The notes beneath the pieces are model-generated. The model had not been told where the DNA came from and searched no databases. It saw only the letters and a list, made by a program, of their open reading frames with translations. This document shows positions 1 to 23,121 of a DNA stretch of 25,390 nucleotides, in pieces. Within the stretch, counting starts at the first letter, position 1; every line of letters starts with the position of its first letter. The DNA lies in IMG/VR virus record IMGVR_UViG_3300022074_000344, positions 1 to 25,390 of that record; one strand, 5' to 3'. Position numbers and translations under genes: made by a program. This DNA is from a virus.

Positions 1-240
1 GATTGTATTTGGATTATCATCAATCGGTCCACCACTACCAGTATCAAGATTGGGATTTACAGGTGCAGTGATGATTACATTGGGGTTATCATCAATCGGT
101 CTACCACTACCAGTATTAATATTAGGATTTATAGGGGCAGTGATGATTACATTGGGGTTATCATCAATCGGTCTACCACTACCAGTATTAATATTAGGAT
201 TTATAGGAGCAGGACCGACTGTATTTGGATTATCATCAAC
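1..240 (-). repeat. 72-bp in-frame tandem repeats
   Basis: Positions 61-132 and 133-204 are adjacent 72-bp copies that differ at a single base (position 64 versus 136). Positions 1-60 are a diverged copy, with about nine differences over 60 bases, cut by the window edge. Positions 205-240 are a partial, diverged copy. The unit equals 24 codons, so copy-number changes keep the minus-strand frame open. The array probably continues past the left edge. Confidence 0.9.
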
Positions 241-618
241 GCCACCATCATCAAATGATGGTGTGTCAAAGATTGTGATAAATCCACCGCTATTGGTTAT
301 ATCAGGATTACCCGGACCCACAGGCGAAGGAGGATTCACACCACCACCGCCACCACCGGGACCGAAATCTATGTCAAATGGGTTGTTATCATTAAATCCA
401 CCACCCGGAGTAATCTCTGGTCTGGGATTATTGATTAAGATAAAACCACCGGGATTGCCACCACCCGGAGGACCGCCACCAACATTACCACCGGAAGTTA
501 TATCAGGAATGATTGGGGGTCGGTTGCTTGCACCACCATCAACATCGCCGCCGGGATTGTTGTCTAAACCACCACCACTGTCGCGGGTTGGACTTGTTCC
601 AAAATCAAACTTTGACAT
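1..618 (-). CDS. Gly/Pro/Asn-rich tandem-repeat protein, 3' end off window
   Basis: An open minus-strand frame starts with ATG at 618 and stays open for 206 codons to the window edge without a stop, so the C-terminus is missing. The start has a good ribosome binding site (AGAGGA a few bases upstream). The protein begins MSKFDFGTSP. Residues 14-110 are dominated by Gly, Pro, Asn and Asp, including a run of six Gly near residue 109. From about residue 135 it becomes a 24-residue tandem repeat built on NPN, NTGSGRPIDDNPN and VIITAP segments. I see no Cys, no signal peptide, no membrane segment and no coiled coil, so it is probably disordered or extended. It sits directly downstream of the major capsid gene, behind a terminator. 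A head decoration or fibre role is possible from position only. I do not recognise a family. The opposite strand is also open here, but it starts poorly and reads against every neighbour. Confidence 0.8.
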   Translation of the reverse strand, partial: MSKFDFGTSPTRDSGGGLDNNPGGDVDGGASNRPPIIPDITSGGNVGGGPPGGGNPGGFILINNPRPEITPGGGFNDNNPFDIDFGPGGGGGGVNPPSPVGPGNPDITNSGGFITIFDTPSFDDGGVDDNPNTVGPAPINPNINTGSGRPIDDNPNVIITAPINPNINTGSGRPIDDNPNVIITAPVNPNLDTGSGGPIDDNPNTI

Positions 619-628
619 AAGTTCCTCT

Positions 629-643: not shown

Positions 644-678
644 AAAAAGATAAGGGAGTCTTTCGACTCCCCTATCTT
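644..678 (-). terminator. rho-independent terminator after major capsid gene
   Basis: On the minus strand a 14-bp stem (AAGATAGGGGAGTC with GACTCCCTTATCTT) closes a GAAA tetraloop and is followed by a run of T (positions 648-644). The stem contains one position that is a G-U wobble in minus-strand RNA but an A-C mismatch in plus-strand RNA, so it is built for the minus strand. It lies about 25 bases after the gp23 stop codon and should end or reduce transcription of the head genes before the repeat-protein gene. Confidence 0.9.
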
Positions 679-702: not shown

Positions 703-2154
703 TTATCCGCCACCGTGAAGGTTAATAATACGGAAGATTCTAAAGTATTGGTTATTACGAACTGCCGCAGCACTGTGAGGATCAGATCGGTCATTCGAAG
801 GTGCTGACACGAATGGGTTGTTGACCATTCCGTAGCGGGTCTTGAAGCCAATCTTAGGCTGGAAGGTCGTTTCCGACACAGCACGAACCATTTGCAGCGG
901 GACGTATGGGCAGTAGAACATACCAGCATCGTATGGGCTGGAACCCCTGTAGCCAACGGTCACATAATCAGCACCCGAGACAGAGTACGGATCGATGTAA
1001 ACCTTGAGTTTACCGTTGAGCGTGCCAACAAAGGTGTTGCCAGCATCATCAACGTCAAGGTCATAACCAGTTGGTGTAGGAGTCAAGTTCAAGAAGCCAG
1101 ACATCGAGAGAGCCGAAGCAACGTCGGAGGTGCAGATAATAAAGTTACCTTTACCACGACGAGTTTCTTTAGCAATCACGTTGGCTTCGCGGTCGATTTG
1201 GAACATCAAACCACGGAACTTCTCAGCACTCCAACGACCATCGGAGTCGTTCTGGACATCATAGATGCCACCGCCTGCGACAGCACCACCAGCAGCGGTG
1301 ATACCAGCAGTCTTGAAGAACAAGTCACCTTGTTGACAACCGAGTTTCGCGTTGCTGTAGATCGAACGAATAACATCACGGTTGATTTCAGCGAGGATTT
1401 CAGCCGAGAGAATGTTAGCCAGTTCGGTTTCAGCGTCAAGACCGTGAACAGCCTTGAGGTCTTGTGCGAGTTCGGAGGTGTATTCAGCCTTCAAAGCACG
1501 AGTCTTAGCAACGACGGACTGACGGTCGATGACGAACGACATGTCGTTGAAGGTAGCAGCGTTATCTTCGAACACTGAGGTAGGCGCACCCGGAGCAGCG
1601 TACTTACCAGCAGTACCACCAGCGAGGTTTTCGGTGAAGGTAATACCAGTTTCAGGAGTAGCACCATTGGTAGCACCACGGTCACCGATTGGGTCACCAG
1701 TTCCACCAGCAACGGGGAAACCAACACCGTCTTGCGTTCCAGCAAAGCCGGGGGTTGCACCGAATCCGGTTGGGGCTTCGTCGAAGAGTGCTTCAGCAGA
1801 TCCGTGGTTACCGAACTTAGCCTTCATCGCAAAGATCAAGCCGGTGGGACCAGACATAGGCTGGACACCACAGACATCGTATGCGATCAAGTTAGGCATG
1901 GCACGACGAACGAGCGAGATAAGAACAGGGTTGAATCCACCAACTGCGTTAAACGCACCGGAGGTGTCACCGAAAACGGAATCAGTACCGGAGTGGTTAG
2001 CGATTTCGGCTTCTCTCAAAGCCTTTTCTTGGTTTTCAAGCATGATCGCAGTAATGTTCTTGCGATAGTCATCCTTGATGGTTGGCATGTCGGCGTGTTC
2101 AAGTACCGGCTGCCACTTTTGTCGTAGATTTTCTACGAGGAGGTTATCAGACAT
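703..2154 (-). CDS. 23: major capsid protein (T4 gp23-like)
   Basis: This is a 483-residue HK97-fold major capsid protein of the T4 type, which forms the hexamers of the head. I place the start at 2154 (MSDNLLVENL), preceded by an AAGGAAA ribosome binding site. An in-frame ATG 38 codons upstream lies within gp22 coding sequence and gives an Arg/His-rich leader unlike any gp23. Recognisable segments are GFNPVLISLVRRAMPNLIAY at about residues 73-92, followed by the VQPMSGPTGLIFAMKAKFG segment, and a C-terminal QPKIGFKTRYGMVNNPF segment. A prohead-protease site of the L-x-E type occurs at L46-R47-E48, followed by A-E-I, closely matching the T4 gp23 cleavage context. The mature protein would therefore start at A49, with residues 1-48 as the delta region. 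Position after gp22 agrees with T4 order, and the gene is followed by a strong terminator. Confidence 0.96.
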   Translation of the reverse strand: MSDNLLVENLRQKWQPVLEHADMPTIKDDYRKNITAIMLENQEKALREAEIANHSGTDSVFGDTSGAFNAVGGFNPVLISLVRRAMPNLIAYDVCGVQPMSGPTGLIFAMKAKFGNHGSAEALFDEAPTGFGATPGFAGTQDGVGFPVAGGTGDPIGDRGATNGATPETGITFTENLAGGTAGKYAAPGAPTSVFEDNAATFNDMSFVIDRQSVVAKTRALKAEYTSELAQDLKAVHGLDAETELANILSAEILAEINRDVIRSIYSNAKLGCQQGDLFFKTAGITAAGGAVAGGGIYDVQNDSDGRWSAEKFRGLMFQIDREANVIAKETRRGKGNFIICTSDVASALSMSGFLNLTPTPTGYDLDVDDAGNTFVGTLNGKLKVYIDPYSVSGADYVTVGYRGSSPYDAGMFYCPYVPLQMVRAVSETTFQPKIGFKTRYGMVNNPFVSAPSNDRSDPHSAAAVRNNQYFRIFRIINLHGGG

Positions 2155-6506: not shown

Positions 6507-7058
6507 TTACTCTCTGATTGGTGCGGCTCCAACAGGAATACCATTTACACCACTGGTCAGGAAGTAAGAGTATGAAAGTGTCACTTGGAAATCAGAAAGT
6601 CCGTCAGCATCAGCAGCAAGGTCTTGTGCAGAAACGCTGGTTGGGAAACAATAAAGAAGTTCATACGATTTGATAGGTTGACCATTTCTGTTGAGTTGAT
6701 CAATCGACCATGTAGGGAAGTCCACTGCGTTAGTCAAAGTAATCGGACGCTGTGCGACGTTGCTTGCTGCTCCGTTGAGATCATCCAACCATTTTTCAAA
6801 GCGTGAGCGAAGGAACATACCCTCGTCATTCAAGATGGTCAAAGTCCAGTTTTCAAAGGTTCGAGAACCCGGAAGTTTGATCTGGCGACCTCTGTAGTTC
6901 ACAGGGATTTCTCCAAGAGTTGATGCAGGAAGTTGTGCGGCAGTGACCAAGAAACTCATGACATCGGGGCTGGTGGTTGTACCAATGTTGCCTTTTACTC
7001 TAAACAGCGAGGGTCTTACGCCGCCGCCGATTGCGTTTTTAAACTTGTCGATGTTCAT
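6507..7058 (-). CDS. 19: tail tube protein (T4 gp19-like)
   Basis: The 183-residue protein (T4 gp19 is 163) polymerises into the inner tail tube through which DNA passes. Diagnostic stretches are the N-terminal MNIDKFKNAIGGGVRPSLF, the LPASTLGEIPVNYRGRQIKL segment (residues 43-62), the FENWTLTILNDEGMFLRSRF segment (68-87) and the final beta-rich SDFQVTLSYSYFLTS. These are the conserved features of T4-type tube proteins. The start has TAGGAGC upstream. It lies between sheath and portal, as in T4. Confidence 0.96.
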   Translation of the reverse strand: MNIDKFKNAIGGGVRPSLFRVKGNIGTTTSPDVMSFLVTAAQLPASTLGEIPVNYRGRQIKLPGSRTFENWTLTILNDEGMFLRSRFEKWLDDLNGAASNVAQRPITLTNAVDFPTWSIDQLNRNGQPIKSYELLYCFPTSVSAQDLAADADGLSDFQVTLSYSYFLTSGVNGIPVGAAPIRE

Positions 7059-11271: not shown

Positions 11272-11716
11272 TAGAAGTAATCCTCTTCACATGCTTCTTG
11301 GGCAGTTGCTTGTTGACCAACTCTTGAAGTTCCTTTGTTGATCCAACGAAGAAGGCGTTGTTTGTTACATTCTTTGCCTTATCTTCTGCCTCAAGTTCTT
11401 TCATCTGTTTATGAACATCGAGTAGTTCCTTATTTGCTTCTACTGATGTTTTGAGTAACTGACTAACAACTTCGAACGCACGCGGACTGTCGCTCTCAGA
11501 CGCGACCTTGAGAATACCATCGAGTGCAATCTTGCCACCATCAATCAAGTCCTTGAGATTTTCACGCACCTCAGAATAGTCTTGTCTTTGATGTATTTGC
11601 TTACGCTCGGGAAACTTCGACAGGTCAATCTCAACCTGTTTACGCATTGGCATCTTTTCCTCTTTTTCAACAGGCTCAATATTGAGTGCGTCCTCTAGTG
11701 GATTTTTATTGCTCAT
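11255..11716 (-). CDS. 16: terminase small subunit (T4 gp16-like)
   Basis: The 153-residue protein (T4 gp16 is 164) regulates the packaging motor and DNA recognition. The central part, from DYSEVRENLKDLIDGGKIAL through SPRAFEVVSQLLKTSVEANK (residues 46-95), matches the conserved helical core of gp16. It is followed by a charged coiled-coil-like stretch to residue 115 and a basic tail (KKHVKRI). The N-terminal 30 residues are acidic and then basic. It starts in an ATGA overlap with the gp15 stop and overlaps gp17 by 17 bases, so the two terminase subunits are translated together. No frameshift is needed for either. Confidence 0.93.
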   Translation of the reverse strand: MSNKNPLEDALNIEPVEKEEKMPMRKQVEIDLSKFPERKQIHQRQDYSEVRENLKDLIDGGKIALDGILKVASESDSPRAFEVVSQLLKTSVEANKELLDVHKQMKELEAEDKAKNVTNNAFFVGSTKELQELVNKQLPKKHVKRITSNDQET

Positions 11717-12558
11717 GATAAGGTTGCTCCAGTGATACTTAGTCCACTACCAAACTCAAAGTTTTCTGTTGTGATAGATGCGTTAGGTGGCATGCTACTC
11801 GCACCGGACGGACCAGTGATTGACGAAATCGATCTCGCAATCGCTCCGGTCGGACCTGTAATAGACCCATCCGTATTGAAGCCACTAATGAATGTGGTAA
11901 CATCGGTCTTGCGAATGATCTTGTTGGTTTTGATCGGGGAGAACACATAAGACAAAGCGGTAAACGATAGGTTGAAAGTCACGTTTCTTTGTGTTGACGT
12001 ATCTCCCTCGAACTCAAACTCAGGAGACACCGAGTTGAGAATGATTGGCACATCAATCTTTGTGTTAAAGTTATCAGTAAAGTTGATTGTCAAAGTAAAC
12101 TCTGGTGTAAAGTATGGCAAGATTTGTTCAACAATCTGCAAACAGTCATCAGTGCTTCTTCCACCAATAGCCAAGTTGAAACCAATGTTATAAGGAACCT
12201 CAGTAAACTGAGTTTTATTTTGCTCTACCAAACCAGTCGTGGGATTCACTGCTCCATCCACATAGCGTCTAAAAACAGTGTTTCGTTTTCTCGAACCATC
12301 GTAGTCAATGTTTGTGATTGAAAATCCCATCCGAGGGAGAATCTGCCCAATATGTGTGTCTGATTCATCACCTTTCAGTAGAGGAAACTCTCGCAGCATT
12401 CTAATAAACTTCTCTTTTGGTGAATACGAGACTGGAACAAGAATCTTCTTTTCAAGTTGTCCAGAGGAGTTCAATCTTTGCACATAAATGTCATCAAAAA
12501 GACTACCGAACCCAATCACAGTTTTGCGAATAGTCTCATTGTAAAATGTAGTAAACAT
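11713..12558 (-). CDS. 15: tail sheath stabiliser / completion protein (T4 gp15-like)
   Basis: The 281-residue protein (T4 gp15 is 272) forms the ring that caps the tail tube and sheath and connects the tail to the neck. The N-terminus (FYNETIRKTVIGFGSLFDDI), VPVSYSPKEKFIRML, the ILPRMGF segment and especially QIVEQILPYFTPEF (residues 141-154) follow T4 gp15 closely. The last 55 residues differ. They are a Gly/Ser/Thr-rich tail with SITGPTG (232-238), SITGPSG (246-252) and SITGAT (274-279), separated by short spacers. This tail has no obvious T4 counterpart and looks like an added flexible or repeat extension. The start shares TAATG with the gp14 stop, with GGAGGG upstream. Confidence 0.95.
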   Translation of the reverse strand: MFTTFYNETIRKTVIGFGSLFDDIYVQRLNSSGQLEKKILVPVSYSPKEKFIRMLREFPLLKGDESDTHIGQILPRMGFSITNIDYDGSRKRNTVFRRYVDGAVNPTTGLVEQNKTQFTEVPYNIGFNLAIGGRSTDDCLQIVEQILPYFTPEFTLTINFTDNFNTKIDVPIILNSVSPEFEFEGDTSTQRNVTFNLSFTALSYVFSPIKTNKIIRKTDVTTFISGFNTDGSITGPTGAIARSISSITGPSGASSMPPNASITTENFEFGSGLSITGATLS

Positions 12559-14227: not shown

Positions 14228-14318
14228 CTAGGTCGCTCCTTGTCCTTTTATATGTATTGGAACGAGGCTTCCTACGTCTTTTCATTCCACCCTTTGGTTT
14301 ATGCTCAGACTCACTCAT
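14145..14318 (-). CDS. possible 57-residue very basic protein overlapping gp13
   Basis: An ATG at 14318 overlaps the stop codon of the 353-residue gene as TAATG, the arrangement used by several real gene pairs here. It opens a 57-codon frame starting MSESEHKPKGGMKRRRKPRS, with a stop at 14145-14147. The first 30 codons fill the 90-base gap; the rest overlaps gp13 in another frame. The composition is extreme: Lys and Arg make up roughly a third, with no hydrophobic core. There is no Shine-Dalgarno, but gp14 also lacks one at its TAATG junction. A DNA-binding or internal head peptide is conceivable. Chance is also possible, and the overlap with gp13 limits independent evidence. Confidence 0.35.
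   Translation of the reverse strand: MSESEHKPKGGMKRRRKPRSNTYKRTRSDLDGNTHDKRRTKTVCSKKTRRTSDRDQC
14245..14252 (-). promoter_or_regulatory. weak candidate late promoter before gp13
   Basis: The minus strand reads TATAAAAG, six of eight matches to the T4 late box TATAAATA, about 20 bases before the gp13 start and within the largest intergenic gap of the module. It is the only sequence of this kind in the gap. It would place a promoter at the boundary between the fibre/appendage genes and the neck-packaging genes. Confidence 0.25.
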
Positions 14319-15379
14319 TAGAACGAGATATTCGTGATTTCACGAATCGTTGTAGCATCGTTCAGACTCTTGATCGTTGCATCAAGCGTCAGTTTTGTAT
14401 CAGTCTTAACTTTAAACAACTTACCGAGTGCATCGTCAAACTCAGAGATCGGATGTTCTCCAGTGCTAGCAGATCCACCAGTAACGGCATTGAAAGTAAT
14501 ACCCACAACACCGAAAGTTGCACTTGTCGCTCCCAAGAATGGCACATGATATGACGAAATGTAGTCAGCACTTCGACCCTTTTGATTGACCGACAACAGG
14601 TTGCTAATCGTTGAGAGTTCAGTGAGGTCAGTTGTTCCCTTAAAGAAGATTGCGGTTTTGTTGGCTGCGACCCCATAAGTAATCGCATTAAATGTCGCAC
14701 CATCAAGTGAAAGACTTGCTTGATCTTTTACAAACTCTCTGAAGGAGTTGACGTTTTTAACAGTTTTGATGTCGCCGCGTGCAGCCTGTGAAGTCGCCCC
14801 ATCAGGAGTCTCAAACAAGAACGGTCCCGTTCGTCCAATAAAGCCAGCGGTAACCGAGTTTCCGGTAGCACCAACAAGCATGATTTCAATCGAGTTCGTT
14901 GCACCCGTTGTAAACCCATCAAAGAATCTGGCAAAGTAACAATCAAAGGTGACACTCGAATCATTATCCTTGATGACAAGTTGTGTCATATGAGTGGGAC
15001 CAGTTACAGCAAGTCTACCAATCCCGTTTGTGGTTCCGTGCGGGAACGTAACTCTATGAGAGATACGAGGGTCAGGAATAGTTCGCACATCCCCTGAACC
15101 ATTACCAGTTTGTCCAGATCCGCTATTTGTGAAAAGATCAGATGAGGTCGTTTTAATCGTTGAGGACGAAATCGATTCTTGCACATAGTTCAGATATGCT
15201 CTGTTAGCCTTGAACTGATTTAACTGCGATGTTGTTGAAAGAGTAGCACCGCCAGCCGAAACGTATTCGGTGGTTGTTGAACCAAGTGTAATGCCTCTAA
15301 AAAAGTTAACCCCATTTTGAACGAGGAGAACTCTTTCACCATTTTGATCACCGATATACTGTTGATTAGTAAATGTCAT
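14318..15379 (-). CDS. uncharacterised Gly/Thr/Ser-rich structural protein
   Basis: I do not recognise this 353-residue protein. It starts MTFTNQQYIGDQNGERVLLV and is rich in Gly, Thr, Ser and small hydrophobics, typical of beta-rich phage appendage proteins. Recurrent short elements are TTGAT, VGATG, DGATF, LGATSATF and GITFNAV, plus TGPTH and RTGPFLFET. The C-terminal 50 residues (SEFDDALGKLFKVKTDTKLT and on) look more helical. There is no membrane segment or signal. It occupies the position of T4 wac (whisker fibritin), immediately before gp13, but lacks the long coiled coil of fibritin. A neck, whisker or tail-fibre attachment role is inferred from position. The start at 15379 has GTGGAG upstream and follows the previous stop by two bases. 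Confidence 0.85.
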   Translation of the reverse strand: MTFTNQQYIGDQNGERVLLVQNGVNFFRGITLGSTTTEYVSAGGATLSTTSQLNQFKANRAYLNYVQESISSSTIKTTSSDLFTNSGSGQTGNGSGDVRTIPDPRISHRVTFPHGTTNGIGRLAVTGPTHMTQLVIKDNDSSVTFDCYFARFFDGFTTGATNSIEIMLVGATGNSVTAGFIGRTGPFLFETPDGATSQAARGDIKTVKNVNSFREFVKDQASLSLDGATFNAITYGVAANKTAIFFKGTTDLTELSTISNLLSVNQKGRSADYISSYHVPFLGATSATFGVVGITFNAVTGGSASTGEHPISEFDDALGKLFKVKTDTKLTLDATIKSLNDATTIREITNISF

Positions 15380-15381
15380 TT

Positions 15382-17385
15382 TTACTCCACGTTAAAGAAC
15401 TTAGCACTAAAAGATCCGGGTGAGCGATAAATCGCACCGACACGTTGCCCAACCACCGCGTGGGTTTTTGATACAATCAAGGCAACACGGACACCCGTTG
15501 TGCAGTTGCCACGAAGATTAAAGGTAAGTTGTTGGGGACTACCAGAAACAAAATCATCAGTGTGAATCAAGTTTCTTCCTCTATTTGGACTGAATAGAAC
15601 AACTCTTTGGTTATTAGCATCATCGGAAAGGTTGATTGAAGATGGTACGTTAAGCAGTTTTTCTTGATCAACTAGTGCAACAGCACCGATCACAGATCTA
15701 ATCTCATTTGATGCTGAGATAGTAGGATCTCCTGTTCTTCTAGACTTAAGTTCGTTAACAAACAAGTAAGATGGCATTGTAATCTGAATATCAAAGTTAC
15801 CAACTGCATATCTTTTGTTTCCAGATGCGTCGTACTCAACAAACTCAAGGTATACGGCATCCTCGTTCAATAAGTCAAACTTTGAGTCTCCACCAGCGAG
15901 ATCGACACCCTCTTCATTTCTAGCCTCAAGAAGATTACTGTCATTACTTTGTCTTAGATCCATAACCATATCATCAGTGATGTTTCCACTAAATGTAATA
16001 TTTGAAAACACTGACGTAGAAGAACCACCGTTGGGTGAGTCCGCAAAGATATTCTTTTGCGTGAGCGTGCCACCCTTAGACATGAGCGTAAGCAAGCCAC
16101 CTGTCTCTGCGATAGTTGAACCAGCAGTTCCACCGAGAAGCAAACTACCACTAACAAGATTCAAACTACCAAAGGTGCTTCCAAACATCGTGGAGTTGAT
16201 ACCACCGATTGAAACTGTACCATCGTTGACAACAGTAAGCACCGGAGACATGGAAGATCCACTACTCTCCTGACCGAAAACACTAAAGTTTGTAGACTCG
16301 GTAGAGTCGTGTCTAAGTTCAACACCGACAGATGGCATCGAACCTTTGACCACGGTTCGCAGTCTATTCTTATCTTGGAAACCACTGAGTCTAGCCGTGG
16401 TAATGCTCGATGCACCCTCAAGTCCTTCATACTCACCAGTCGATCCAGAAATCGCAGTTCGAATAGCAATCGTGCTGCCACCAGAGTTTTGCAACAAAAT
16501 GTCACTTGCAGAGGTGGCACTGGTTGATTCTGTGACAAGGTGATACGTTCCAAGCGGAAAAGTGATTCCATTCAGTCCGAATCTTCTCAATGTTTGATCA
16601 ATAACAAGATTGGGACCAGAGGTGTCAAATGCATCTGTTCCGTTGGTCGAACCACCACCACGGAAAACTAAACCAACACTATTTGTTACACCACCACCAA
16701 CTCTACCAAAGAAGATTTGTGAGCCATACTCTGCGACATCGCTTCCGGTGTAGCCAAGATTTTTAAGATGAAGGTACGAGATGGTTGAGCCGAGTGTAGT
16801 GCCACCGTCATTTGCTATTTGTAGCGAACCGAGAGGTCCGTTTTTGAACATATGAACACCGGCAGATCCACCAGTCTGTCCACCAAGCAACATGCCGCCA
16901 GATGCGGCAAAGCGGAAGGGCATATTTGAAAAACTTGACCCTGCATTAGTGCCGTTGAAAAGTGAGTATGCTTCAAAGGTCGCAGAAGCCGCTTTGATGA
17001 TGATATCGCCAGTCGCGGTCGTTGGATCGTTGATTCCAGTTAGACCGATTGTGACCGCACCCGTCAAACCGTTGACACTTCGCACGACATTGCCAAACAA
17101 GGTCGCACCAGAGACATCTAAAGTCAAACCTGTAAAACGAACCTCGTTACTAAAAGTCAAACTTCCAGTAAAATCAGTGTCGCCGGTAGTTGCATCTTCC
17201 AAAGACAAACCAACAGTTGCAATGCCGTTTGTATTGATGGCAACAGTGATTCCTGTACCCGGAGTGATACCATAAACCGCAACAGGGTTTAGTGTTTCGA
17301 CGATTTCATTCGTCTTATCAAACCATGCACGGAAGTTATCCGAAAGGCTAATCGTGTTCAGGTTGGTAAATGCATCTCCAGCCAT
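15382..17385 (-). CDS. uncharacterised fibre-like structural protein
   Basis: The 667-residue protein has a short N-terminal module with SLSDNFRAWFDKTNEIVETL (residues 13-32), a helix that resembles the virion-attachment ends of cyanophage fibre-like proteins. A long Gly/Ser/Thr-rich beta region follows, including SVNGLTGAVTIG (103-114), a motif common in tail-fibre shafts, and many LxxGGxxGS-type strands. From about residue 480 the composition becomes more mixed and globular (LEFVEYDASGNKRYAVGNFD, LVDQEKLLNVPSSI). The end, VALIVSKTHAVVGQRVGAIY then FSAKFFNVE, suggests a terminal beta domain. I infer a tail-fibre or neck-appendage role; it matches no T4 gene I can name. The start at 17385 has TAGGAAAAA upstream. 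Confidence 0.88.
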   Translation of the reverse strand: MAGDAFTNLNTISLSDNFRAWFDKTNEIVETLNPVAVYGITPGTGITVAINTNGIATVGLSLEDATTGDTDFTGSLTFSNEVRFTGLTLDVSGATLFGNVVRSVNGLTGAVTIGLTGINDPTTATGDIIIKAASATFEAYSLFNGTNAGSSFSNMPFRFAASGGMLLGGQTGGSAGVHMFKNGPLGSLQIANDGGTTLGSTISYLHLKNLGYTGSDVAEYGSQIFFGRVGGGVTNSVGLVFRGGGSTNGTDAFDTSGPNLVIDQTLRRFGLNGITFPLGTYHLVTESTSATSASDILLQNSGGSTIAIRTAISGSTGEYEGLEGASSITTARLSGFQDKNRLRTVVKGSMPSVGVELRHDSTESTNFSVFGQESSGSSMSPVLTVVNDGTVSIGGINSTMFGSTFGSLNLVSGSLLLGGTAGSTIAETGGLLTLMSKGGTLTQKNIFADSPNGGSSTSVFSNITFSGNITDDMVMDLRQSNDSNLLEARNEEGVDLAGGDSKFDLLNEDAVYLEFVEYDASGNKRYAVGNFDIQITMPSYLFVNELKSRRTGDPTISASNEIRSVIGAVALVDQEKLLNVPSSINLSDDANNQRVVLFSPNRGRNLIHTDDFVSGSPQQLTFNLRGNCTTGVRVALIVSKTHAVVGQRVGAIYRSPGSFSAKFFNVE

Positions 17386-17397
17386 ATATTTTTCCTA

Positions 17398-20300
17398 TTA
17401 GGTCTTGATTATGTAGTGCATCGCAACAAACGGTGGCATCTGTTCTTTGAGGTCTTTGTCAAGTGCCGCTCCCGAAACATCTCCAGTAGTTCCGTTTGGA
17501 GTAGTGCCAAGAGTGATTCCATCTGGGTGGAAAGTTTTACTATGTGTGTCATCAAGAATAAACTGTGAAGTTTTTGAGTTTCCCACTTTGTTACCAGAGT
17601 CACGGAACTTACCACTGAAAGTGTTATTATAGTGATCAGATGCATTTGCAGAGCAAAGTTGCAATCCTGCACCATCATTCGTGCTATCATTCCTAGCATT
17701 GAAGGGCGCACGACCCGGAGTCAAGTGGTTGTGTCCTTGAAGTCTATGTGATCCACCACTCGAACCTCTGGTTCTAATAACTCGAACATCACCGGCTTGC
17801 TCACTCGCGGTTCCAGAGATAAACCCATCATTGAAACCCTCAGTCGTTTGTCTAGCACCGATTGGCATGAATGATCGAAGATCTGGAAGGCGAACTACAC
17901 TCGCATCATCATCAGAGAAGTTATACGCACTTCCAAGGACTCCTGCAAGATCGGGGAAACCGGCTTGATCCAACAATGTTCCATCACACCGCAAGAATCC
18001 GTCAGGAATGATTGCACCTGCATATGGGACCACAGCACCAACAGGCATAATAGTATTAAAGAACTGATTTCTTGTTTTCTTTCCAAGAGGCACAGCAGAA
18101 ATAGAGGTGATGATTGGACTATCATTATTCGTTGTATCTGCGTTAGGAATACAAATCTTAATCTGATACTCAGTAAATGTACCCAACGTAGATTGACCGG
18201 CGTTATCTTCATCAGTCAATACATCTGCGGCAAAGTTGTTGACAACAACTTCATCTTCTCTGGATATGTTATATCCACCTTCAACTGGTCTGAGTTCAAC
18301 GTAGTTTTGCTCTTCAATATTTTGATTACTAGAGCCACTCACTCTTGCAAAAACTTGCACCTTTGAAACGGCAGACGGGAAGATGCCGGATAGTTTAACA
18401 TTAATGTTATTAGCACTCTTACCCAACCCTACAATCTTCGAGTAATACGTTGCAACACTAGATGACTTTTGATCGTTCGCGTTTTCTTCCGCCGAGTTTT
18501 CAATCGAAGTCGAAGTAAATGACTTGATGGCAAGAAGTTTACACTGAGCCTCATCAATCAGTGGTGAAACCGATCTTACACTAGAGAAGGAAACTCTAGC
18601 CGATGTTGGTTTGCCACTTGTCTGTCTAACGAACCTGTAAGTTGCGTTTGGCTGTGTCGTAATGTCATCTCCATCATTGACGATGGTAACCTGCATGTTA
18701 TTTCTTGAGAGAATATCTCTTGCATTCGCAAAGTAGAAAACACTGTATTCATTTGAGGTGTCAAATACAACATCAGGTGTGAAGGTAACTGAGGCACTTT
18801 GAGTACTTGTAAACAACGAGCGAACAAGTTTAAGATCAAGGAATGTCTCAGAGTAAATAGTTCTTTGACCATCATTTCTAGGGACAAACAAACTGTTAAG
18901 TTTTCCACTGTCATCACTGATCGTTGTGTTAAGAGCAAAGCCATTATCATTAGTCAATACGCTAAGTGCATACTGACCCGGAGTAAGATAAACAGGTGCT
19001 TCGAACTCAAAGTCTGTCAACTCCGTAGTAGAGATGTCTGCTGCTCTTAGTGTTTTTTCAGAGAATGGCACGACATAGTTTCTTCTTGGCGAACCGTTGT
19101 CATCAACTGGTCGGATCTGAATACTGACAGTTGTATCATCAGTTTCTGGCTTGTCAGAAAAACTTAACCTTGCAGTCGAAAGCATCAAACCGTCAGGGAA
19201 AAGATTGGCATCAACTGTAAAGGTTTGTGCCAGAGGATCTAGAGAGTTGAAAACATTTACGCCAATGCCACCAAGAGAGTCAATGTATTCAGCACCGAGG
19301 AATGTTTCTGTATTGGACGCATCTCTTCTCTTGATAGGTGGTCGAATAGAGTCGATTCCATTTTCAACCGTCTGGTAGTTACCCAATGCGTAGAAAGTTG
19401 CATCCGCTGATGATGTTGCCGTAGTGATCACACCAGAGGTCAGTCCATCAGAAACACGAACAATCTTTTCTCCAGTTAGGAACGTATCAGTGGGAATAGT
19501 TACACTAAAGTCAAACGTTCCTGATGAGTTTGCGGAGTAACCACTCACGGTAGATCCAACGAGAGTCTCATCAAAGTAAAGATAGTGGGTTGCGTTTGGT
19601 TTTACGTTTTCAACAACACCCGTGATCGTGACAGCCTGCATATAAGGCACAACGGAAATGTCGATGAGTCTATCACCAACTTTTCTAACAATCTTCTCCG
19701 ACAACACGCGACGTACAAATGACGCACGTTTACTGGTGGACGAATAACGCTTGTTGTCTGGGTCATTTTGTGGTGAGTCATTCTCATCACCAATAACTCG
19801 ACCAAACCACAAACTTTCCCAGTCTTTCCACTGAGTGCCAAAGCCAAATCTTTTTCCGTCCACCCCAGTGGGTGCAGAGATCGCCTTTTTCCATGCGTTG
19901 TTTTCACCGGAAACATTAACAATAACTTTTGCTGCTTTTGTCTCACTCCAGTATCGATCAAAGGCTGGCTTGAGTTTAATCGTTCCTAAGTAATCAACGA
20001 TACCAAAGGGGTTTGGTGAAAGTGTTGCACCTCGACTTGATTGATTTGCGATATAGTCAGCAGTCCCTTGAACTGCTGCGGTGGCAAGTTTACCGTAGTT
20101 GGTATCATAAATCTGTGTGTTTGCGTTAACAGCAATCGTACCTGATCTTGAGAAAGTCTGGAACGGAGGATGAAGTTGTGCGGACGTTGGATCAATCGAA
20201 ACATTGTGCTGTGCTTTGGTGACATCGGCGTTGCCGTGACCAATCAAATCATCAACATACACACCAGTATCAAGAGCCTCCGCACCGGGGAACAATCCAA

Positions 20301-23121
20301 GTGCAGAAGCGATTGCTTGTGATCGCAGCGCATTTCTGTAAATAAACTCTGCATCGGTAAACGCGGTGTCTTCAATGTCACCGATATCTTGCATCGTAAA
20401 TCTTTGAGTATCGATATATCGAACATTCACAGAGTTATCATCAATGGTAAATGCATCTAAGAAGATACGATACAGTTCAAGATCTTTTTGGTTGACCTTT
20501 GGAACAACAGGGTTTGTTGATGGCTCTCCTTCAACAAGTCTCAAAACTCTATCTTCACCAAGAGACAAAACATCAACTCTCGGAAGGAAGGTGGTGAATG
20601 AAACTTCTGATCTGTCTTCCAAGAAATCATATGGAGTCGGAACGGTGTTAAAGTTGAAATCTATTCTGTTCAGTTCGGTTCTAAGGGGTCTAAAGTCAAG
20701 TGCATCAAACAGTCTGAGTGTATCACCAGTGTCAGGATCGATGAATGTCGGAGAGTCTGAGTAATCATTCAACTCAGTGATTGCAGCATAACTTTGTCGA
20801 GTAAACGGCGCACCGAAGCCACTTTGTTCGTGAGTAAACTTTCGATACGTTGCGGTTAGTTCTGCACCTTCACTAGATAAAGTTTCTCCGTCAGCAAGAA
20901 TCAATCTAGCAAAGTCATACATGTCAACTCGTTGACCAGTATCAACAATAAACTTTGATGTAACGTCAGTTCCACCATCAAGGATTGAGATAACATCAAA
21001 CAAGTCAGAAACAACCGTATCAGATCCACCAGCATCAAGTCCCCGTCCGTTGAAAACATAAATGGTATTATCACTTGTCAGTGGTGTGACCGCTGCCGTT
21101 TCTGTGACAAGTGTTTTCTTACGAATGGTTTTGTCAGAGGCATCAAGACTATATTTGAGTGGGACAGTAGCGTAAAACTCTTGGTTTGCAAACTTCACCG
21201 CATCATCAAACTGAACTTTGAGTGAAGGAGTACCAGTGTTATCAATCGTTGCTTCGTATGCGGACGCACCGGGGAAAGTCAAGTTTTGACTTCTACCATT
21301 GCCCTGATTGGAATCAAACTCAGTAATCAATACCACCAAACTAGACGAGTTGATAAACTCGACAGCACCAGACCCAGTTGGCAAAGTGAAGTTAATCAGA
21401 CCGCCAGAGTCAGAAGTTCCCGTAAAGATTTTGTTGGCTGTGAAATGTCCAGTGTGTGTTTCACCATCAATCGATTGTGTTGCAAAGGTATTTGGAAGTT
21501 TAAAAACCTTTCTGTTTGATTGAAGGGTGACATCGTTTCCGGGGGTTGGGGTTGTGAAGCGGAAAAGGTTGCTATTTTCACTCGGTGCAGGAGAGCCATT
21601 CGTTGGGTCATTGATTTCGGCAGAGGTATTGACCGAGTTCATGAAGGTCAAGTTGTTTGAGGTAAACAGACTGAACTTTCTACCCGTAGATGGATTTGTA
21701 CCCATCTCAATACCAGTGACATGAAATCTGAGGAACGCATTTTCGCCCTCAATCGATCTAGAGGATGGACGAATGTTTACAAATCTACACTGTCCGATAC
21801 AAGTATCTCCGTCAAAGATCTTGAGAAATGTACCCTTTTTCAAGTGTCCGATGTCGAGAGTGTTGAGATCGCCATCAGGATTGCTCTGTGTTGGAAGAGT
21901 GTAAACGTTCGTATCAACAAAAGTTGACTCAGTAAAGTTCAACTCTTGTCTGCCAAGTTGCTGCGTGGTTCTTGCTTTATTAACAATAAACTTAGATGGA
22001 GAGATGGTTTCAAACTCATATCCAGAGACATACGCTTTGCCCGGAGACAAAACTGCACCAAGTTTAGTGGTGTCAACAGAACCAAAAACATCTTCGTGTG
22101 ATTCGACCGTCAGCGTAAACGGGTTGACCGTGTAGTTGCCAGATTCATCATAAGTTCTTCTTGCAAGCGTACGCAAGAGGTCGCCATACTCTGCAAACTT
22201 AACCTTTTTAGTAACTGTGCCTGCGTCAACTCGAACGAGTTCAACATAATCACTCGTTCCACCAGAGATACCAAGAGCGGAGGAGTCTTCCGATCCTGAC
22301 AATGCTCTTTGTGAAAGAGTCGGGGTGATTCTAAATCGATCAGCACCGGGAGCATTAAAGTTATTGAATCCATTTGCAGGATCATTCAAAGAAGAATCAT
22401 CACTTGCATCAATGATGGTCTTGGTGACATCAAAGCCAACCGACACGGTTGGATTGTTAAACTCTCGGTAGGCTGCGGTGATTGAGTATGGTGCGAGTGT
22501 TTGAGGCTCGTTCAAACAGAAGTAGCCATCAAGATAGTAGATACCACGTTCTACGGAGGTGAGGTTTGTGATCGTTCCAGTAGCAGGGGCGATTGCCGAG
22601 CCAGAGTTAAAAGTAATATTAACTGCTGAGTCTGCCGTTGTTGAAAACGCAGTGCCAGTAAAAGTGCCTGCCGTGTTGTATGAAAAGAAAACAACTTGCT
22701 CGTTGTCTGCTGTCAGTGCAGTGGCATCAGGGGTTCCAGTGGGTGTATCAAGAACAGAAACCACGGTTGCAAGTGTATCGGAGGACACATCGGTGGTGGT
22801 GATTTTTCTACCGACGAGTGAGTTGAGATTTTCAGAAGACAGAGCGGAGTCGGTTGCGATGCGAGCAAAAAAGCCATTGAATACAGAGACTTCACCGCCG
22901 CTAACAAGAGAACCGTTTTCGAAGATGTGATCGCCAACTCGCTCGATTTGATTTTGCAGAATAGATTGAAGTGTAGAGAGTTCTCTTGCTTGAACATTTT
23001 GACCGGGACGGAACAAAACCTTGAGAAACTTCTTCTCTGGGTCAAAGTCATCATAGTAAGGGCTTCGTGCCATCAAGGTGCTATCAAAAGCACTCGTATC
23101 TGTATTCTTTCCGATTGTCAT
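17398..23121 (-). CDS. giant DUF4815/tail-collar structural protein
   Basis: At 1907 residues this is the largest gene in the window. The N-terminus (MARSPYYDDFDPEKKFLKVL, then FRPGQNVQARELSTLQSILQ, about residues 17-56) has the hallmark of DUF4815 proteins of T4-like cyanophages. A conserved-looking patch sits near residues 1090-1105 (FGTQWKDWESLWFG), followed by a beta domain from about 1155 (VPYMQAVTITGVV). The C-terminal 216 residues (1692-1907) form a phage tail collar domain: MPVGAVVPYAGAIIPDGFLR, RLPDLRSFMPIG, GHNH with His at 1797 and 1799, and a closing MPPFVAMHYIIKT. The HxH pair matches the zinc-binding arrangement of T4 short tail fibre gp12. It sits where T4 has genes 9 to 12, so it may provide baseplate-peripheral and receptor-contact functions in one chain (inference). 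AGGAGAG precedes the start. Confidence 0.93.
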   Translation of the reverse strand: MTIGKNTDTSAFDSTLMARSPYYDDFDPEKKFLKVLFRPGQNVQARELSTLQSILQNQIERVGDHIFENGSLVSGGEVSVFNGFFARIATDSALSSENLNSLVGRKITTTDVSSDTLATVVSVLDTPTGTPDATALTADNEQVVFFSYNTAGTFTGTAFSTTADSAVNITFNSGSAIAPATGTITNLTSVERGIYYLDGYFCLNEPQTLAPYSITAAYREFNNPTVSVGFDVTKTIIDASDDSSLNDPANGFNNFNAPGADRFRITPTLSQRALSGSEDSSALGISGGTSDYVELVRVDAGTVTKKVKFAEYGDLLRTLARRTYDESGNYTVNPFTLTVESHEDVFGSVDTTKLGAVLSPGKAYVSGYEFETISPSKFIVNKARTTQQLGRQELNFTESTFVDTNVYTLPTQSNPDGDLNTLDIGHLKKGTFLKIFDGDTCIGQCRFVNIRPSSRSIEGENAFLRFHVTGIEMGTNPSTGRKFSLFTSNNLTFMNSVNTSAEINDPTNGSPAPSENSNLFRFTTPTPGNDVTLQSNRKVFKLPNTFATQSIDGETHTGHFTANKIFTGTSDSGGLINFTLPTGSGAVEFINSSSLVVLITEFDSNQGNGRSQNLTFPGASAYEATIDNTGTPSLKVQFDDAVKFANQEFYATVPLKYSLDASDKTIRKKTLVTETAAVTPLTSDNTIYVFNGRGLDAGGSDTVVSDLFDVISILDGGTDVTSKFIVDTGQRVDMYDFARLILADGETLSSEGAELTATYRKFTHEQSGFGAPFTRQSYAAITELNDYSDSPTFIDPDTGDTLRLFDALDFRPLRTELNRIDFNFNTVPTPYDFLEDRSEVSFTTFLPRVDVLSLGEDRVLRLVEGEPSTNPVVPKVNQKDLELYRIFLDAFTIDDNSVNVRYIDTQRFTMQDIGDIEDTAFTDAEFIYRNALRSQAIASALGLFPGAEALDTGVYVDDLIGHGNADVTKAQHNVSIDPTSAQLHPPFQTFSRSGTIAVNANTQIYDTNYGKLATAAVQGTADYIANQSSRGATLSPNPFGIVDYLGTIKLKPAFDRYWSETKAAKVIVNVSGENNAWKKAISAPTGVDGKRFGFGTQWKDWESLWFGRVIGDENDSPQNDPDNKRYSSTSKRASFVRRVLSEKIVRKVGDRLIDISVVPYMQAVTITGVVENVKPNATHYLYFDETLVGSTVSGYSANSSGTFDFSVTIPTDTFLTGEKIVRVSDGLTSGVITTATSSADATFYALGNYQTVENGIDSIRPPIKRRDASNTETFLGAEYIDSLGGIGVNVFNSLDPLAQTFTVDANLFPDGLMLSTARLSFSDKPETDDTTVSIQIRPVDDNGSPRRNYVVPFSEKTLRAADISTTELTDFEFEAPVYLTPGQYALSVLTNDNGFALNTTISDDSGKLNSLFVPRNDGQRTIYSETFLDLKLVRSLFTSTQSASVTFTPDVVFDTSNEYSVFYFANARDILSRNNMQVTIVNDGDDITTQPNATYRFVRQTSGKPTSARVSFSSVRSVSPLIDEAQCKLLAIKSFTSTSIENSAEENANDQKSSSVATYYSKIVGLGKSANNINVKLSGIFPSAVSKVQVFARVSGSSNQNIEEQNYVELRPVEGGYNISREDEVVVNNFAADVLTDEDNAGQSTLGTFTEYQIKICIPNADTTNNDSPIITSISAVPLGKKTRNQFFNTIMPVGAVVPYAGAIIPDGFLRCDGTLLDQAGFPDLAGVLGSAYNFSDDDASVVRLPDLRSFMPIGARQTTEGFNDGFISGTASEQAGDVRVIRTRGSSGGSHRLQGHNHLTPGRAPFNARNDSTNDGAGLQLCSANASDHYNNTFSGKFRDSGNKVGNSKTSQFILDDTHSKTFHPDGITLGTTPNGTTGDVSGAALDKDLKEQMPPFVAMHYIIKT

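Follow-up and report, generated by a model that had tools for sequence, protein, structure and literature searches.

A gp3-like tail-tube terminator with a long and probably unstructured N-terminal extension

The tail tube of phage T4 ends in a hexamer of gp3, which is bound by gp15 (PMC3004832). In proteins that share the tube fold the N-terminus lies at the contacts between rings, and in AFP the N-loop of the last ring unwraps or rearranges and so makes contact with the cap protein (PMC8718954). The gene for gp3 is a core T4-type gene that is normally located after gp23 in marine T4-like phages, and the order gp23-gp3-UvsY-UvsW is common to the cultured phages S-PM2, Melnitz and Mosig. Accessory parts fused to tube-fold proteins are also known, as illustrated by the C-terminal Ig-like domains of the lambda, T5 and YSD1 tail tubes (PMC8718954).

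The stretch of DNA analyzed here (the window) is a complete IMG/VR virus record of 25,390 b, and it breaks off within the minus-strand gene that comes immediately after gp23. When completed from other contigs, the product of this gene shares its domain fold and sequence profile with the gp3 proteins of T4-like phages (T4, S-PM2, Mosig, Melnitz and phiM7), and its neighborhood, gp23-gp3-UvsY-(2OG oxygenase)-UvsW, is the same as in the marine relatives. However, gp3 in these relatives has ~153-220 residues with N-terminal arms of ~5-60 residues, whereas the proteins described here have 547-592 residues and arms of 379-424. This protein resembles the lambda, T5 and YSD1 tubes in joining an accessory to a tube-fold domain, but their accessory is folded and C-terminal and the one found here is an N-terminal chain without predicted structure.

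Completion of the gene at the contig end

The original prediction described a 206-codon minus-strand frame with a ribosome binding site, open at the window edge, of low-complexity Gly/Pro/Asn composition and with a 24-residue repeat, and all of these features are present (Table 1). It also pointed out an open plus-strand shadow, which is found at positions 2-688, although selection favors the minus frame. The dN/dS of the N-terminal block is 0.18 in the sense (minus) frame vs 0.25 in the shadow, and the corresponding values for the linker further downstream are 0.22 and 0.35, with the shadow containing stops there. The shadow is open because TTA, CTA and TCA codons are scarce in the extension (3, 0 and 4, respectively, among 379 codons), so it was rejected as a gene. 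The minus frame is also backed by the homology of its continuation in another contig, L026, to gp3.

A search with the 206 visible residues found matches in L026 (99% identity) and L002 (70% over 85 residues). The window and L026 share 1,459 bases and differ at two of them; both differences (window 162 and 90; L026:1298 and 1370) are G to A changes at the same site of neighboring 72-bp units, which suggests gene conversion or unequal exchange between repeats. To the left of the window, where a stop or frameshift would have ended the predicted protein, L026 has neither and carries the reading frame on to 547 aa, so what the window shows is no more than the N-terminal part of it. L083 and L162 also encode complete proteins, in which 424-425 of the 592-593 residues lie ahead of the conserved domain. 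As the extension is seen in at least six contigs and is complete in three (L026, L083 and L162), an assembly artifact was rejected. The window, L002, L082 and L084 each end inside the extended gene, a pattern that would follow if its repeats brought assembly to a halt, and this break made a piece of gp3 look like an orphan at the window edge.

Table 1. Positions of the features discussed (window coordinates unless a contig is named)
Feature	Position	Strand	Remarks
N-terminal 206 codons of extended gp3	618..1	minus	ATG at 618-616, open at window edge
Ribosome binding site AGAGGA	623..628	minus	4 nt upstream of gp3 ATG; read from sequence
Strong hairpin followed by U-run, between gp23 and gp3	647..678	minus	-24.6 kcal/mol, z -5.7
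gp23 major capsid protein	703..2154	minus	Directly upstream of gp3; Pfam PF07068 2.9e-129
Conserved Gly/Pro/Asn-rich block N1, residues 1-100 (MSKFDFGTSPTR...DNNPFDIDFGPGGGGGG)	319..618	minus	75-85% identical in L083, L002
NPF motif, residues 79-81 (NNPFDIDF)	376..384	minus	From alignment and motif listing; tentative
72-bp tandem repeats, 24 residues (APINPNINTGSGRPIDDNPNVIIT), three units	7-212/239	minus	
gp19	6507-7058		Separate gene from gp3
gp15	11713-12558		Separate gene from gp3
Complete extended gp3	L026:842-2485		547 aa with stop

The hairpin between gp23 and gp3 is probably a terminator or attenuator of gp23. The corresponding intergenic region of L004, L005, L007, L008, L083 and L109 may also contain it, as a readthrough peptide (IRKIGESKGSLIF) that recurs in relatives suggests that this element is conserved.

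Identity of the completed protein

Searches of Pfam, PHROG and NCBIfam with the 206-residue piece alone gave no match. In the completed L026 protein, however, the C-terminal ~168 residues (~380-547) constitute a domain with the tail-tube fold, and residues 360-540 match the tail tube family phrog_45 (E=8.4e-30), while a match to Pfam gp19 falls under the family cut-off. When a domain profile built from seven relatives was compared with the PDB, the T4 gp3 tube terminator was found at 9.9e-8 and gp54 at 0.017, and gp19 was not listed. The domain was also modeled with AlphaFold (pLDDT 74), and Foldseek ranked T4 gp3 of the portal-neck-tail complex first (9mkb_AC, E 4.9e-10, TM 0.75), followed by gp19 of KP1 and T4 (TM 0.72-0.78); because the gp19 folds are nearly as close, the fold alone cannot decide identity. 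By tblastn, 718-908 phage records were matched, most of them annotated as gp3, tail completion or head-proximal tip of the tail tube. A phmmer search of the PDB with the whole protein also returned FadL (0.002-0.3) on the low-complexity part, which was rejected as composition-driven.

Taken with the position of the gene, these results make it almost certain that it encodes the T4-type tail-tube terminator gp3, so the original prediction of an unrecognized protein unlike any T4 gene at this position gives way to an N-terminal extension of gp3, identified by profile, fold and position; the profile searches and structure prediction that it had proposed for the complete protein both have T4 gp3 as the best match of the C-terminal domain. 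That the protein could instead be a tube paralog of the gp19 or gp54 type would agree with the shared fold and with the name of phrog_45, but this reading is very improbable given that the window has a separate gp19 gene, that the best profile match is T4 gp3, far above gp54, that matches in classical T4-like phages bear tail completion or gp3 labels and few are called ‘tail tube’, and that S-PM2 has its gp3 in this position, after gp23. In addition, no second gp3 homolog was seen in the window, where gp13, gp14, gp15 and gp19 are each separate genes. The proposal that the frame encodes a stand-alone head decoration or fiber protein, which was based on its composition and its position after gp23, is scarcely credible unless the arm is cleaved off in the virion: the reading frame in L026, L083 and L162 has no stop before it reaches the gp3 domain, Pfam, PHROG and NCBIfam gave tube proteins only and no decoration family of the Hoc or Soc type, and no fiber or adhesin domain was found in the family searches. 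The size of the protein departs from that of its relatives, but small size is a habit of gp3 and not a defining feature.

Gene order also places this locus among the T4-like phages. Downstream of gp3, L026 encodes UvsY, a 2OG-Fe(II) oxygenase and UvsW, an order that is identical to that of Pelagibacter phage Mosig, oxygenase included. The minus strand of the window is a T4-type late-gene block that contains a baseplate wedge gene, a giant structural protein, gp13-gp15 and gp17-gp23. This giant protein (17398-23121, minus strand; 1,907 residues) matches phrog_358 and has a tail-collar domain at its C-terminal end. Between it and gp13 (14318-17385, minus strand) are proteins of 353 and 667 aa that have no PHROG match, the larger one also being without a Pfam match. 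Two tandem gp3-like genes, not one, follow gp23 in L028, L030, L031, L032, L039, L041, L044 and L045, and in L011 a 398-residue ORF is inserted between gp23 and gp3.

Layout, conservation and predicted disorder of the extension

The extended gp3 has four parts: a ~100-residue Gly/Pro/Asn-rich block (N1), a spacer of variable tandem repeats, a linker of ~110 residues and the cap domain. The extension measures 379-425 residues before the domain, as compared to mostly ~5-60 outside the clade. Between L083 and L026 the first ~100 residues are 85% identical and the ~111-residue linker 63-67%, whereas the middle stretch is unrelated between sisters, with 20-aa repeats (FKGDPTGILTPAPDVPSFDD) in L083, 24-aa repeats in L026 and poly-Pro in L002; L084 has another divergent linker. 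The ends of the extension are under purifying selection, with dN/dS ~0.2 (N1 0.18-0.23, linker 0.22) alongside 0.06 for the gp3 domain. No match to the linker was found among INPHARED phages at E up to 10, nor a relative among the genome contigs.

In a tree of the gp3 domain the extended proteins form one group (support 100/99). The domain of short-arm gp3 proteins from a sister clade (L003, L085-L093) is 58-63% identical to that of the extended proteins, and these proteins likewise have an LPG[LV]T motif (18-19 residues before the domain; 18 in extended gp3) and an NPF near the N-terminus, but they lack the repeats and the Gly/Pro/Asn-rich block. The NPF in N1 resembles the NPFxD/M near the N-terminus of short gp3 arms (L003, L007, L085-L093, L107-L110), but with so much N and P in the extension this match can only be tentative. 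Both motifs seem to be retained from an ancestral arm. An exception among relatives outside the clade is a gp3 with a different N-terminal addition (L011:7879-8725), in which ~120 residues include a single dockerin/EF-hand-like stretch (FDYNGDGNVDGADLGILL) whose match to Pfam Dockerin_1 is below the cut-off (E 0.044).

The original prediction had raised the idea of a disordered chain on a virion protein, and this is probably right, with the gp3 domain attached to it. In the full-length AlphaFold model residues 1-354 have no secondary structure (pLDDT ~36-60, mostly ~36-50), as compared to pLDDT 80-92 over much of the gp3 domain, so the N-terminal arm is probably unstructured. The extension is acidic, with a net charge of -19 in L026 and -38 in L083. 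Its charge-hydropathy score is borderline and not clearly that of a disordered chain, which counts against the explanation preferred below. A search of the open literature found no disordered extension on tail completion proteins.

Possible roles of the extension

By analogy with T4, six copies of the C-terminal domain would assemble into a ring that sits on the last gp19 ring as a cap and to which gp15 binds. An ancestral arm of roughly 5-60 residues grew to 379-424 in one clade, and the six arms may leave the neck wall at the junction of tube, gp15 and sheath; the N-termini at ring contacts and the AFP N-loop point to such an exit through the wall rather than into the lumen. Once outside, the arms could act as flexible tethers in which the repeat region only sets the reach, and the conserved N1 block may bind some partner, such as a neck or sheath protein, a fiber or the cell surface. 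The combination of conserved ends and a freely changing spacer is more easily reconciled with a tether than with a rigid structural element. The explanation that we prefer, at slightly better than an even chance, is that the arm is a flexible tether that points outward and is bound through its N-terminal block; a more specific form, in which the tube cap has become a six-armed disordered neck brush whose N1 blocks tether the virion to a partner on the host surface or on the virion, is rather unlikely. If the arm points outward, it would be comparable to other flexible neck appendages, the fibritin (wac) whiskers of T4 and the neck fibers of A-1(L) (PMC3004832, PMC10966104), but only in how they work, as those are separate trimers of folded beads or coiled coil and the arm is a part of the cap protein without predicted structure.

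The chief alternative to a tether is near-neutral growth of low-complexity sequence, in which repeat slippage lengthened a permissive arm that has no dedicated function beyond being harmless to assembly. It would explain why the repeat region is wholly different between sister lineages and why every relative outside the clade manages without the extension, and the paired differences between the window and L026 are what slippage or gene conversion predicts. We nevertheless regard it as doubtful, since identity is 63-85% over residues 1-100 and the linker, the dN/dS of both is low (see above), and no fewer than four lineages (L026, L002, L083 and L084) retain the extension. Alternatively, the arms could point inward and occupy the upper end of the tube or the neck, or bind to the tape-measure protein, aiding length control or DNA retention. 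T4 gp3 has been suggested to touch the tape measure gp29 (PMC3004832), and the reported negative charge of the lumen would go well with an acidic chain, but space is a difficulty: six arms of ~380 residues amount to ~230 kDa, which we estimate would occupy >20 nm of a 4-nm lumen at full packing, and the tape measure already takes up this space. Together with the location of tube-fold N-termini at ring interfaces, this makes an inward arrangement improbable.

The gene itself is an ordinary one; it is the variant that is unusual. For annotation, the extended gp3 is a warning, because it breaks contigs at its repeats and so leaves orphan low-complexity or antisense ORFs at contig ends. Few core components of T4-like tails are as constrained as gp3, which normally has <220 residues. 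If a clade has more than doubled its length by adding an arm that is unstructured and changes fast but keeps its ends conserved, the neck ring would be shown to be capable of carrying long flexible appendages. If the six-armed brush proves to be true, it would be a case of neck appendages built without a separate fiber gene.
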